Source: Tildeniella torsiva UHER 1998/13D (lineage in GTDB: Bacteria; Cyanobacteriota; Cyanobacteriia; Phormidesmidales; Phormidesmidaceae). From it: a stretch of DNA of 64,000 bases. A program made the position numbers and the translations under genes. Numbering within the stretch: position 1 is the stretch's first letter; each line of letters opens with the position of its first letter. The DNA is taken from positions 62,001 to 126,000 of the forward strand of contig JAHHIH010000011.1 of NCBI GenBank assembly GCA_019358835.1. The letters run 5' to 3'. This document shows, one piece after another, positions 34,785-40,891 of the stretch. The notes beneath the pieces were generated by a model. It searched no databases. It worked only from the letters and a program-made list of their open reading frames with translations, and was not told the DNA's origin.

Positions 34785-34921
34785 GTCAGACAACCCTCCC
34801 TTGGGTATGTCGAGCCAGTGTAGCTCAGCTCTCCCACCCTCGCAAAAACCTGTGTGGCGATTGCTGTAAAGACCCTAAAGTGGCCTATGGTAATAGGTGC
34901 AACGACGTAGAGAATAGCAGC

Positions 34922-36787
34922 ATGGGCACGACACAAGGGTTCATCCGCAAGGTCATGGGACTGGGACGGCGGCTTGTGGTCCGGGCTGTGTCCCAGGTGG
35001 TTATTTTTGGGGCGATCGCTCTCCTCCTCTTCACTACGACCAGCTGCGCCAAGCCTGTACAGCCCACCGAGCTACTGTCAGAGCCCACCCCCCAGTCCAA
35101 CCGCCTCACCGGGCAAATTGCCGAGGTGTCTCCCCCCGAAACGCTGGAAACCCTCAAGCAAATTATCGACGCCTACACGCCCCAGGTGCGCATTCTTAGC
35201 CCCCGGCCTGGCGAAGTGCTAGACGATACTGCGGTGACGGTGCGGCTCCAGGTGCGCGGTCTGCCCCTGTTTAAAGACGACGCCTACGAACTCGGCCCCC
35301 ACCTGCACCTATTCCTAGACAACGAACCCTACAAAGCGGTCTACGACCTGGCAGAACCGATCACCTTTGAGGGGCTTTCCCCCGGCACCCACACCCTGCG
35401 CGTGTTTGCCTCACGCCCCTGGCACGAAAGCTTCAAAAACCAGGGAGCCTTCGACCAGCGCACCTTCCATGTGGTCGCCCCCACGCCCCAAAACGAACTC
35501 AACGCCATGGCTCCGCTGCTCACCTACAGCCGCCCCCAAGCGACCTACGGGGCCGAGCCGATCATGCTCGACTTTTACCTCACCAACGCGCCTCTGCACA
35601 TGAGTGCGCAGGCTGAAGCCAACGACGATCTGCACGACTGGCGCATTCGCTGCACCGTCAACGACCAAAGCTTCGTGTTCGACCAGTGGCAGCCCATCTG
35701 GCTCAAGGGCTTTAAGCCGGGCCGCAACTGGGTGCAGCTCGAACTCATTGACGAAAGCGGCAACCCCATCGACAACCGCTTTAACAACACCGTGCGCATA
35801 ATCGACTACCAGCCCGGTGGCAGCGACACCCTCTCTCGCCTGGTGCGCGGTGAATTGGGCATAAAAGATGTAGCGGGTATTATTGACCCCACCTATGAGC
35901 CCCCAGCACCCCCAGCACCTGAGCCGACAGCCGAGCCCCCAGAATCAGAACCCCAGCTTCCCTCCGCTGATGCAGAAAAGCCAGGGCAGAACGTTCCTGA
36001 CCCTAAGATTACTCAGCCAGACACCGCTGCTCCAGAGCCATCCCAACCTGAAACTACCCAGGAGCAACCCGCCCCTGAATCAGCTGCTCCAGATACCGCC
36101 ACCCAGGGTGTGCCTCCGGCTGAGCCTGAAGCCGAGACGCCACCTACTCCCTTGCTTCTTCCAGAGAAATCTACAGAGTCGGAGTCAGCGAAGGAAGATC
36201 AGCCCATGCTGGAAGACGAGGGCGCTGGGAAGGATGTCGAGGAGGACGCCTTTGAGCCTGAGCGCCCTGCTGAAGAAGCCCCTGATTTGATCGCACCTGA
36301 GGCAAAGGATGCCATTGAGGATATGGTGCCCTTGGTCGATCCAGAGGTTCCCCCCATGCTGTCTCAGCCCCAGGTAGAGCCCGAGCCTGTACCCGTACGC
36401 CCAGCCCCCCCTGCGACCTCAGAACCTACTCTAGAACCCAGCCCCAAAGGGTTGCTCAATCGCTTTAAGCAGTGGCGCAACCCGGCTAATGTACCCTCTG
36501 CGCCCGCCATCCCCACACCAGAGGATACATTTGGCGATCTGCCCCAAGCCACGCCCGTCCCAGAGGCGTTACCCAACTCGGAGGCTGATGCAGTCCCAGG
36601 GTTACCTAGAGTCCAACCCGAGGTGGTTGAACCCTACACCGATTCTTCTCCAGGTGAGGAACAGACAGAATCTAGCCCGCCCAGCAATGAAAAGGCCCCT
36701 GAGGCAGATTCCTCAGAGGCCGAAACCAACGAGCCTAAGGTTGCGCCGCGATCGTCCCTAGCTCCAGAAGTTCGTCCGTTTATTTAG
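34922..36787 (+). CDS. Lipoprotein-like protein with Pro/Glu-rich tail
   Basis: A 621-residue exported protein. Residues 18-41 are hydrophobic, ending in TTTSC; C42 may be a lipidated cysteine, though the lipobox is imperfect. Residues about 65-320 form two folded beta-rich units (ILSPRPGEVLDDTAVTVRLQVRG, GPHLHLFLDNEPYKAVYDL, GTHTLRVFASRPWHESFKN). The remaining 300 residues are low-complexity, rich in Pro, Glu, Ala and Ser, and likely span the cell wall or periplasm. ATG 34922 is preferred to an in-frame GTG at 34880. Tail to tail with the DUF4870 gene, 4 bases apart. Confidence 0.78.
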   Translation: MGTTQGFIRKVMGLGRRLVVRAVSQVVIFGAIALLLFTTTSCAKPVQPTELLSEPTPQSNRLTGQIAEVSPPETLETLKQIIDAYTPQVRILSPRPGEVLDDTAVTVRLQVRGLPLFKDDAYELGPHLHLFLDNEPYKAVYDLAEPITFEGLSPGTHTLRVFASRPWHESFKNQGAFDQRTFHVVAPTPQNELNAMAPLLTYSRPQATYGAEPIMLDFYLTNAPLHMSAQAEANDDLHDWRIRCTVNDQSFVFDQWQPIWLKGFKPGRNWVQLELIDESGNPIDNRFNNTVRIIDYQPGGSDTLSRLVRGELGIKDVAGIIDPTYEPPAPPAPEPTAEPPESEPQLPSADAEKPGQNVPDPKITQPDTAAPEPSQPETTQEQPAPESAAPDTATQGVPPAEPEAETPPTPLLLPEKSTESESAKEDQPMLEDEGAGKDVEEDAFEPERPAEEAPDLIAPEAKDAIEDMVPLVDPEVPPMLSQPQVEPEPVPVRPAPPATSEPTLEPSPKGLLNRFKQWRNPANVPSAPAIPTPEDTFGDLPQATPVPEALPNSEADAVPGLPRVQPEVVEPYTDSSPGEEQTESSPPSNEKAPEADSSEAETNEPKVAPRSSLAPEVRPFI

Positions 36788-37580: not shown

Positions 37581-38033
37581 CTAGGGGGCGGTTGACTCGG
37601 CATCGTCAACCAAGGCTCTAGCCGCCTCAAAGTAGTTGGCCCACTGCGGTACATCGGGCCGAAGCTGCCACTCGCTGCGGCTCACCGGCACCGTGAGAAT
37701 TGGAACAGAAATGCCCTGGTTATCGCCAATCACGGTGACGATGACATCGGTCATCAGCACATCGGCATCGAAGCTGCGCTGAATGGCGGCGCGGGCGACG
37801 ATCTCTGAGCGCTGCACTAGGGTTTCAAAACTTTCGCCCTGTTCGCGCACTAGGTAGAGGTTGACGCGCGATGTATAGGCCTGAGCCACGGGCGGATTGA
37901 CGAGTGACGGCAGAGCCACGCTCCCCAATCCCATTAGCGCAGCCAGGGTGACGCGTGCCCCGAGAGACACCATGCTGGAAAGCCCGTTGTGGCTTTTAGC
38001 GCGTCCATTATTTAAAGGAGATATCAATTTCAT
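37581..38033 (-). CDS. Exported conserved hypothetical protein
   Basis: A 150-residue protein with an N-terminal signal (VTLAALMGLGSVALPSLVNPPVAQA, likely cut after AQA) and a small mature domain, RVNLYLVREQGESFETLVQRSEIVARAAIQRSF, followed by TDVIVTVIGDNQGISVPILTVPVSRSEW. Conserved-looking but not recognised. ATG at 38033 is chosen; the frame is open to 38102. Divergent from the caspase-like gene. Confidence 0.75.
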   Translation of the reverse strand: MKLISPLNNGRAKSHNGLSSMVSLGARVTLAALMGLGSVALPSLVNPPVAQAYTSRVNLYLVREQGESFETLVQRSEIVARAAIQRSFDADVLMTDVIVTVIGDNQGISVPILTVPVSRSEWQLRPDVPQWANYFEAARALVDDAESTAP

Positions 38034-38243
38034 GGCCTGCTGCTCCACACATCCCCGCAGGATGCCCAAAAAGTGCCTTAACTCTAGCGATAGAGCCGCC
38101 AATCGTCAATTAAGAATTGTCGCCGCTGGGGATGACCGGTCTGAGTTCCGTTTAGCCCCGCAGGCGCTACTATGGCAGGGGAATTTTTATCCCTCCAACC
38201 CTACAGCACGAAATTCTACAGCATCGAGAGGCATCCCCAAGGC

Positions 38244-40199
38244 ATGGCAAGCCACTGGCCCGTGATCGTTGGCATCAATCAATATCAATCGCTTCAGCCC
38301 TTGATGTATGCCCAGTTCGATGCCCTCGAACTGCGGGACTTTTTGGTCAATGAGGTGGGTCTGCCCGCCCAGTATTGCTCGCTGCTGACGGATATTTCTG
38401 CGGTGGTCTACGAGGGGGCAGCTGCGCCGACCCGTGAGGTGCTGCTGCAACGGCTGGCCCAGAGCTGCGATCGCGCCGGTTCCGAAGATACGGTGTGGTT
38501 TTTCTTTAGCGGCTACGGGGTGCAGTGGCAGGGGAAAGATTACCTGCTGCCTATCGATGCCGACCCCAACCGCATTGAGCAAACCGGCATCTTAGTAGAA
38601 ACTCTGCTGAATCAATTGGCCCAGGGCAACCAGCGCCAAGCCATCGTCATGCTCGACATGAACCGGCCCCAGAGCGCCCTCAGCCCCGCCCCTGGAGGCG
38701 GCCACCTGGGCGACCAAACCCTGGCTTTGGCTAAGAGTCTAGGGATTCCCCTGGTGCTCTCTTGCCAGCCCGACCAGTTTTCTCAGGAGACACTGGCGGT
38801 GCGCCACGGGCTGTTTACCGAAGCCCTCATCGAAGGGATGCGGTTCCACGGCTGTCTGACCCTGGCCCAGCTGGTGGTCTATCTGCGCGATCGCGTCCCC
38901 GAGCTGTGCCAGCACCACTGGAGACCGGTGCAAAATCCCATGGCGGTAGTGCCCCCTGGGCAGCAGTACATCATGTTGGTGCCCGCCAGCCTGGTGGGCC
39001 AAATGCCCATTGGCGTACTTCCGGAGCCAGAGATTCTGCCAGAGCCCCCGCCCAGTCCAGAGATTTCTCTACCGGTGGAGCCCAATCCGATCTGGCCCAG
39101 TTACCCCGTTCCGCCTACGGATCTCCCCAACGGTGGTTCTGCTAAGCCCTGGCCCCCGACCGAGCGGCCTGAGCCTGAGTTGCCGCCGGGCGGATTGCCC
39201 GAGGTGACCCAACCGCCAGTGACCAACCCGCCCACCCCTTCCCTGGTGCCCTGGCAGCGCTGGGGAATTTTAGCGGCGGGTCTGCTGCTGCTCGGTGTGC
39301 TGTGGCGCAACCAAGATAGTTTGTGGGGGCCAGGCTCATCTCCAGAGGCGACTCCAGAGGCCACCGCGCCACCGCCCGCGGACGATCCTCCCGCAGAAGG
39401 TCTGCCGACGGCTCCCCCTACCGAACCTGTGGGTGAACCCCTGTTTCCTGGGACGGCGGCCAGCGGTGCCGAGGCTCTGGCTCGCGCCAGAACCGCCCTC
39501 GACCAGCGCCAGTTTGGCGAAGCGCTGAGCTGGTTGACCCAAATTCCCGAGGGTGAGCGTCCCGAAGACTACGAAGCCCTGGTTAATCAAGCTGAGACGG
39601 GCTATGCGAACGCCGAGTTGTCCGGGGGGGCCGCCCTCAACCAGGCCCGCCGTCTGATCGAACCGGTTTCGGCCTCCCTGTTTAACGATGCCATTGAGCA
39701 GGCTAGGCAGGTGCCCGCAGGCGACCCGGCCCACGAGCAGGCCCAGGCTGATATTGAGCGCTGGAGCTTGGTGATTTTAGACCTCGCTGAAGGCCGAGCC
39801 GCTGCGGGTGATTTGGATGCCGCCATTTCGGCAGCTCGCCTGGTGCCCCAAGATCAGGGCGAAACCTGGGGCCAGGCCCAGGCCCAGATTCAAACATGGG
39901 AGCAGAGCCGGGTTAACCGGCAGCTGCTGCAAGAGGCCCAGAGCCTGCTTCAGCCCGACCAGGCCGCTTCATTTCAGGCGGCGATCGCGATCGCCCAGCA
40001 AATTCCCCCCGACTACCCTGAGTCTGCGATCGCCCAGGAGCGCATCGACCAGTGGAGCCGAGATATTTTGGCGATCGCCCGCGCCCGCGCCGCCTCTGGC
40101 CAAATCCCCGGTGCGATCTCTGCCGCTGGCCTAGTGCCCCCCGGCACCAGCGCCTACGACCAGGCCCAGCAGGAGATTCAGCAGTGGCAAAGCCAGTGA
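38244..40199 (+). CDS. Catalytically dead caspase-fold (C14) protein
   Basis: A 651-residue protein. Residues 1-230 have the C14 caspase fold (PVIVGINQYQSLQPLMYAQFDA at the start). The expected SGHG catalytic His is replaced by Tyr (SGYG, Y91), and the expected DACHSG Cys region reads LDMNRPQS (N140), so both dyad residues are gone. This is a Tyr/Asn variant of the inactive orthocaspases described in cyanobacteria. A Pro-rich linker, a membrane helix (about 340-354) and a C-terminal helical region with repeated A-A-R-A-based units (QIPGAISAAGLVPPG) follow. A binding or regulatory role is likely. The region after the membrane helix would be periplasmic. Confidence 0.85.
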   Translation: MASHWPVIVGINQYQSLQPLMYAQFDALELRDFLVNEVGLPAQYCSLLTDISAVVYEGAAAPTREVLLQRLAQSCDRAGSEDTVWFFFSGYGVQWQGKDYLLPIDADPNRIEQTGILVETLLNQLAQGNQRQAIVMLDMNRPQSALSPAPGGGHLGDQTLALAKSLGIPLVLSCQPDQFSQETLAVRHGLFTEALIEGMRFHGCLTLAQLVVYLRDRVPELCQHHWRPVQNPMAVVPPGQQYIMLVPASLVGQMPIGVLPEPEILPEPPPSPEISLPVEPNPIWPSYPVPPTDLPNGGSAKPWPPTERPEPELPPGGLPEVTQPPVTNPPTPSLVPWQRWGILAAGLLLLGVLWRNQDSLWGPGSSPEATPEATAPPPADDPPAEGLPTAPPTEPVGEPLFPGTAASGAEALARARTALDQRQFGEALSWLTQIPEGERPEDYEALVNQAETGYANAELSGGAALNQARRLIEPVSASLFNDAIEQARQVPAGDPAHEQAQADIERWSLVILDLAEGRAAAGDLDAAISAARLVPQDQGETWGQAQAQIQTWEQSRVNRQLLQEAQSLLQPDQAASFQAAIAIAQQIPPDYPESAIAQERIDQWSRDILAIARARAASGQIPGAISAAGLVPPGTSAYDQAQQEIQQWQSQ

Positions 40200-40266: not shown

Positions 40267-40390
40267 ATGGGGGAGTAAGGGGTAGGGAGTAGGGAGTGGA
40301 TTGGCATGACGTTTAAGCTTTAGAGGATTGGCTGCTAATAAACTAAATCCAAGGCTAGCTCTACTACCCCTACCCCCTTACCCCCTACCC

Positions 40391-40891
40391 ATGTTCTCTC
40401 CCCCCAACCGCATCACCCCCGGCCCTGGCCAAGAATCCGTCTGGGATTACCCGCGTCCGCCCCGGCTAGAAGACTCGACGCGGCATATTCAAGTGGTGTT
40501 CGACGGCGTGGTGATTGCCGACTCGCGGCGCACCAAGCGGGTGCTAGAGACAAGCCACCCGCCCACCTACTACATTCCCCCCGAGGATGTGCAGATGCAG
40601 TATTTTCAGCCGGTGCCCCGCTCCACGTTCTGCGAATGGAAAGGGGCAGCGGTGTATTTTACGGTGGCGGTGGGCGAACGAGTTGCCGAGCAGGTCGCCT
40701 GGGCCTATCCTCAACCTACGGAAGCTTTTGAGAGCATTGCCAACTACATCGCCCTCTACCCCAGCCGCATGGAAGCCTGCTACGTCGATGACGAACTGGT
40801 GAAATCCCAGCCCGGCGATTTCTACGGCGGTTGGATTACTTCAGATATCGTTGGCCCCTTCAAAGGCGACCCTGGCACCTGGGGATGGTAA
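40391..40891 (+). CDS. DUF427 domain protein
   Basis: A 166-residue protein with the DUF427 pattern: HIQVVFDGVVIADSRRTKRVLETSHPPTYYIP, EWKGAAVYFTV, VAWAYPQP and ALYPSRMEACYVDDE. The family is widespread and of unknown function, with a tandem beta-tent fold. The ATG at 40391 follows directly on the C-rich repeat, so the repeat is part of its leader. Monocistronic. Confidence 0.93.
   Translation: MFSPPNRITPGPGQESVWDYPRPPRLEDSTRHIQVVFDGVVIADSRRTKRVLETSHPPTYYIPPEDVQMQYFQPVPRSTFCEWKGAAVYFTVAVGERVAEQVAWAYPQPTEAFESIANYIALYPSRMEACYVDDELVKSQPGDFYGGWITSDIVGPFKGDPGTWGW

Follow-up and report, generated by a model that had tools for sequence, protein, structure and literature searches.

A dyad-less orthocaspase with a predicted membrane helix and helical repeats is associated with HetR and with a divergently encoded, putatively secreted protein in cyanobacteria

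Pseudo-orthocaspases of the YN type, in which Tyr and Asn replace the catalytic His and Cys, form a published cyanobacterial clade of 49 sequences (Klemencic et al. 2019, PMC6426788), which is also covered by Bhattacharjee et al. 2021 (PMC8283722). Both surveys describe the type as limited to nitrogen-fixing multicellular strains (PMC6426788, PMC8283722) and report transmembrane (TM) helices in 37 pseudo forms and, for most pseudo forms, no identifiable C-terminal domain; the persistence of the pocket Asp residues in YN forms has likewise been reported (PMC6426788). In a 2012 report, a caspase domain with a C-terminal TM helix was the commonest architecture found only in cyanobacteria (Asplund-Samuelsson et al., PMC3501461). 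HetF of Anabaena, which binds FtsI, is located at midcell and at the junctions between cells (PMC8406250). For YN forms, the literature yielded no study of function.

In the window, that is, the whole stretch of 64,000 nucleotides analysed here, a pseudo-orthocaspase of 651 aa is encoded on the plus strand (38244..40199, stop codon included in the coordinates). The gene starts at ATG 38244, where the orthologues open with the shared block M-x-x-x-W/A-x-I-x-I/V-GIN; consequently, the longer ORF from an alternative start at 38172, which is not kept in the orthologues, is unneeded. Residues 5-237 (38256..38954, plus strand) make up a caspase-fold p20 domain on the basis of Pfam C14, an AF2 model and Foldseek. 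The Peptidase_C14 match spans residues 7-222 (E 5.6e-16), AlphaFold models residues 1-250 with confidence (pLDDT 92, pTM 0.92), and the PDB structures closest to the p20 model are those of the MALT1 paracaspase and of metacaspases (best E 7e-12), a structural comparison that bears out the caspase homology proposed earlier from the letters. PADLOC returned the generic caspase model alone (E 2.6e-9).

The sequence-only reading had placed Tyr at the position of the catalytic His (SGYG) and Asn at that of the catalytic Cys (LDMN), and both assignments hold. Tyr91 (38514..38516, plus strand) aligns with the His of SGHG, and Asn140 (38661..38663, plus strand) aligns with the Cys of DACR, in 15/15 close relatives with the His/Cys pair (HC relatives); H is present at 91 and C at 140 in 15/15. 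An alignment restoring the His/Cys pair was sought and none was found, and the alignment with the HC relatives shows that the catalytic dyad is absent from the window protein. That inactive Tyr/Asn orthocaspases were already known in cyanobacteria, as the sequence-only reading stated, is correct, since the YN clade is published (PMC6426788, PMC8283722). Among the 51 rows of the pseudo clade, Y is found at position 91 in 48 and N at position 140 in 42; position 139 also differs, being Ala in the HC set and Ile or Met in the pseudo clade. The 80 named orthologues comprise 79 YN forms and one YH form, and degenerate members (YQ, YR, YI and YT) are seen in the HetR-negative family f6. Residues G10, Y14, D26, G90, D99, D138 and R141 are near-invariant and common to the 51 pseudo and 15 HC rows, and S173, S180, E182, F191 and Q230 are near-invariant in the same rows as well.

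In a 66-row tree, built from our own alignment and not from the published YN alignment, the pseudo rows form one side of a single branch with support 100/100, and the tree requires 12 dyad changes overall (4 in the His column, 9 in the Cys column). The nearest relatives of the p20 domain are SGHG/DACR orthocaspases of the HC type, at 29-38% identity. Compared with close relatives, dN/dS is 0.06-0.15 for p20, which is therefore constrained and not decaying, 0.05-0.15 for the C-terminal repeats, 0.02-0.17 for the divergently encoded partner described below, and mostly 0.2-0.5 for the linker and TM. An active paralogue elsewhere in the genome had been envisaged in the sequence-only reading, and three HC paralogues with an intact dyad are indeed present (L001, L002 and L004). 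The same genome encodes a second pseudo-orthocaspase (L005, G000:C38:125479-125766) with YG at the dyad in our alignment (SGYG, IDAGSQ) and a Tat-like leader, as well as an 850-aa protein (L220, G000:C48:19551-20402) composed of CHAT, a Pro-rich linker, a TM helix and a TPR-like part, the layout reported for HetF.

C-terminal to p20 lie a Pro-rich linker whose sequence is not conserved (about residues 255-338; 39006..39257), a single predicted membrane helix whose position is conserved in the orthologues (about residues 338-356; 39255..39311), an additional TPR-like segment of helices (about residues 407-455; 39462..39608), and two helical repeats (about residues 463-556, 39630..39911, and about residues 557-651, 39912..40196), all on the plus strand. 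The TPR-like segment recurs in L007 and L009, which come from the same taxonomic family. The Pro-rich linker and the repeated helical domain described earlier are thus confirmed, the latter as two copies of ~95 aa in a C-terminal domain whose model is all-helical (pLDDT 89). The membrane helix stands in part: it is clear in the orthologues, with a mean hydropathy of at least 1.6 in 132/144, but short in the window protein (WGILAAGLLLLGVLW, 19-residue mean hydropathy 1.41). The C-terminal repeats are present in 77/80 named orthologue loci, so that the predicted p20-linker-TM-repeat architecture is conserved among the orthologues, a point added here.

The C-terminal domain of the window protein has no Pfam match, TPR included, while the orthologues give weak TPR/ARM-like matches. 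In Foldseek, the domain has a loose likeness to TPRs, with the best match to designed TPRs (E 1.5e-3), and the C-terminal profile finds no close natural match in the PDB, its matches being mostly designed helical repeats. As no signal peptide precedes p20 and one TM helix follows it, p20 is predicted to lie inside and the repeats outside; the charges flanking the TM helix divide 57 versus 66 proteins between the opposite topologies. The same repeat is carried by larger single-TM cyanobacterial proteins (~610-780 aa), which are found in many larger genomes, and two of the larger repeat proteins scanned against Pfam gave no named domain. Three single-TM proteins with this helical repeat, of 669, 741 and 610 aa, are encoded in the same genome (L175, L177 and L178 on contigs C30, C44 and C3).

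Head-to-head with the pseudo-orthocaspase gene, a small protein is encoded on the minus strand (37584..38048), with a signal-peptide-like start ending ..VAQA/YTSR; the sequence-only reading of the locus did not include this neighbour. An alignment of its homologues shows a conserved mature domain of ~95 residues, for which no Pfam match and no PDB match was obtained. This partner is head-to-head in 48/81 loci examined, the window included, from Nodosilinea to Nostoc and Fischerella. In the phylum set described below, the pair lies within 0.8 kb in 48 of the 84 genomes with the TM-repeat family, which belong to 8 taxonomic families; the partner is not adjacent in the other 36/84, is absent or weak in groups f11, f2 and f6, and has a similar gene in five genomes without the TM-repeat family. 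The 195-bp intergenic region (38049..38243) contains long blocks identical in close relatives and probably regulates both genes; NtcA, HetR and DIF consensus sites were sought in it and none was found. The conservation of this divergent pair suggests a shared function of the two genes. Just downstream, at 40370-40888, a DUF427 (NTP_transf_9) protein is encoded, an adjacency seen in close relatives only, and a long protein with an acidic and Pro-rich C-terminal half (34880-36787) is also near the locus in close relatives.

In three genomes the TM-repeat ORF occurs without an intact p20. In L039 (628-2289; a HetR-positive genome), a p20 remnant at 628-1133 contains many in-frame stops, and the downstream TM-repeat ORF is open over 346 aa. 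In L184 (419 aa) no trace of p20 is found and the secreted partner is still head-to-head, and in L040 p20 is absent from a genome that has no partner match. Because the TM-repeat part is retained where p20 is missing or decayed, it seems useful on its own, and the C-terminus seems to be a conserved domain able to outlive the caspase part.

The phylum set comprised 386 genomes, 80 with HetR (PF03574) and 306 without. The TM-repeat family is found in 84/386 genomes, namely 78/80 HetR-positive and 6/306 HetR-negative ones (phi 0.94, uncorrected for kinship), and is missing from 2/80 HetR-positive genomes. Members were counted as YN-type where p20 matched strongly and in full outside family f6, a few genomes with CN, HN or YS at the dyad being included; they occur in 70/386 genomes, of which 69 are HetR-positive; 70 and 84 are our own tallies, with a handful of lower-listed members not retrieved. 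The families are not independent, and the HetR association may reflect shared ancestry. In an earlier survey, every filamentous strain had HetR (PMC3141437), and we therefore use it as a stand-in for filamentous lineages; the gene could not be traced in the filament-specific gene lists of PMC2821919 and PMC3141437, in which loci are named differently.

A nifH gene above the cut-off is found in 58/386 genomes; it is present in 38 of the 70 YN genomes, and none above the cut-off is found in the other 32, the genome of the window among them. In several family f7 genomes, the nifH match is cut at ~residue 141 by an internal stop, as if interrupted; since some f7 nifH genes are cut in this way, the argument rests on the 18 nifH-less YN genomes outside f7 together with the genome of the window. 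Among HetR-positive genomes, YN members are about equally frequent with nifH (38/43) and without it (31/37), whereas 0/15 nifH-positive HetR-negative genomes have one. The published restriction of the YN type to nitrogen fixers fails. Accordingly, a nitrogen-fixation or heterocyst-specific factor, which the literature suggests for YN forms, is largely refuted by the nifH counts and is the least probable of the explanations weighed here, in spite of a YN-nifH association across the phylum (phi 0.52) and of the restriction to multicellular nitrogen fixers stated in both surveys. Nitrogen fixation as a correlate of the YN type is replaced by a tighter one, HetR.

Based on the results presented above, the loss of the dyad, the retention of the pocket, the predicted TM helix, the HetR link and the partner point to a probable envelope adaptor and away from a protease. 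The reading that we favour, at a probability of about 50%, is that this catalytically dead orthocaspase is an adaptor that spans the membrane, has a partner in the periplasm and is linked to the filamentous way of life. Since the acidic pocket is kept and the His/Cys dyad is gone, binding without cleavage is possible, and the cytoplasmic p20 could hold a basic peptide or protein and leave it uncleaved. The flexible linker and the single membrane helix would join p20 to TPR-like repeats outside the cytoplasm, and these repeats may work jointly with the small secreted product of the divergent upstream gene. Such a unit, most likely placed in the cell envelope or septum, would serve a need of filamentous, HetR-bearing cyanobacteria, whether or not they fix nitrogen. 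The resemblance in layout to HetF, which L220 of this genome also displays, is counted in favour of the adaptor as an analogy. A more specific version, possible but doubtful, is a two-gene envelope device of filamentous cyanobacteria in which the transmembrane pseudoprotease would read a basic peptide in the cytoplasm and, by way of its periplasmic repeats and a dedicated secreted partner, would contribute to cell-cell connection or septum building, in parallel to HetF.

A scaffold or decoy at the membrane had been offered in the sequence-only reading. The scaffold comes close to the adaptor favoured here; the decoy is conceivable, because paralogues with an intact dyad exist in the genome, but is less supported. 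As a decoy or regulator, the dead p20 would pair with the three active HC paralogues at the membrane or divert substrates from them, comparable to cFLIP and caspase-8, and the retained pocket residues, the HC orthocaspases as nearest relatives and the precedents named in PMC6426788 agree with this. However, a decoy made of the caspase fold only leaves unexplained why the TM-repeat part outlives p20 in three genomes and why the recurrent divergent partner is a secreted protein; moreover, no active caspase gene is among the recurrent neighbours listed, whose clusters were not domain-searched. We consider the decoy unlikely. A further reading, in which p20 is a dispensable leftover and the TM-repeat module alone matters, would fit the missing or decayed p20 of L039, L184 and L040, but it is very improbable given that purifying selection on p20 is as strong as on the repeats and that the pocket is near-invariant across 51 rows. 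Somewhat less improbable is a pro-death or stress-perception factor resembling SyOC, the Synechocystis pseudo-orthocaspase whose loss raises H2O2 tolerance (PMC7889975). The fold is the same and the dyad is likewise missing; on the other hand, SyOC is a Tyr-Gly form and not a YN form (PMC6426788), and this genome has a YG protein with a Tat-like leader of its own, namely L005.

The lost dyad itself is not new; what is added here is the conservation of the architecture, the HetR link, the divergent partner and the retention of the TM-repeat part where p20 is missing or decayed, and a candidate partner gene is now named for a YN pseudo-orthocaspase. The SGHG/DACR orthocaspases differ in having an intact His/Cys pair and other C-terminal domains, some of them FGE-sulfatase, and these relatives gave no match to the C-terminal repeat. 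SyOC and other YS or YG pseudo-orthocaspases are likewise cyanobacterial and have the caspase fold but no dyad; they belong to another clade in the published trees, the YS forms with a Tat-like N-terminal leader, and in the local YG example, L005, the TM-repeat module is absent. The metacaspase of PMC3501461 is similar in that its caspase domain is predicted to be intracellular and is followed by one TM helix, in seven species; a repeat domain and a partner, both present here, are not described in the accessible text of that report. HetF has the same layout, with an N-terminal caspase-type fold, a TM helix and TPRs in a filamentous cyanobacterium, but it belongs to the CHAT family (PF12770) and needs its active site for function (PMC8406250). 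Pfam finds Peptidase_C14 and no CHAT in the window protein, the CHAT proteins of the genome being other genes. Homology of the repeats to the HetF TPR was considered and rejected, no CHAT protein of the genome being among the repeat matches. The window protein is thus a Peptidase_C14 protein without the dyad whose repeats form a separate family, and its likeness to HetF is one of layout and not of shown descent. With the published YN clade it shares a p20 domain with the Tyr/Asn dyad, a retained acidic pocket and a clade of its own, and it differs from the published YN forms in its conserved C-terminal repeats, its host without nifH and its divergent secreted partner.
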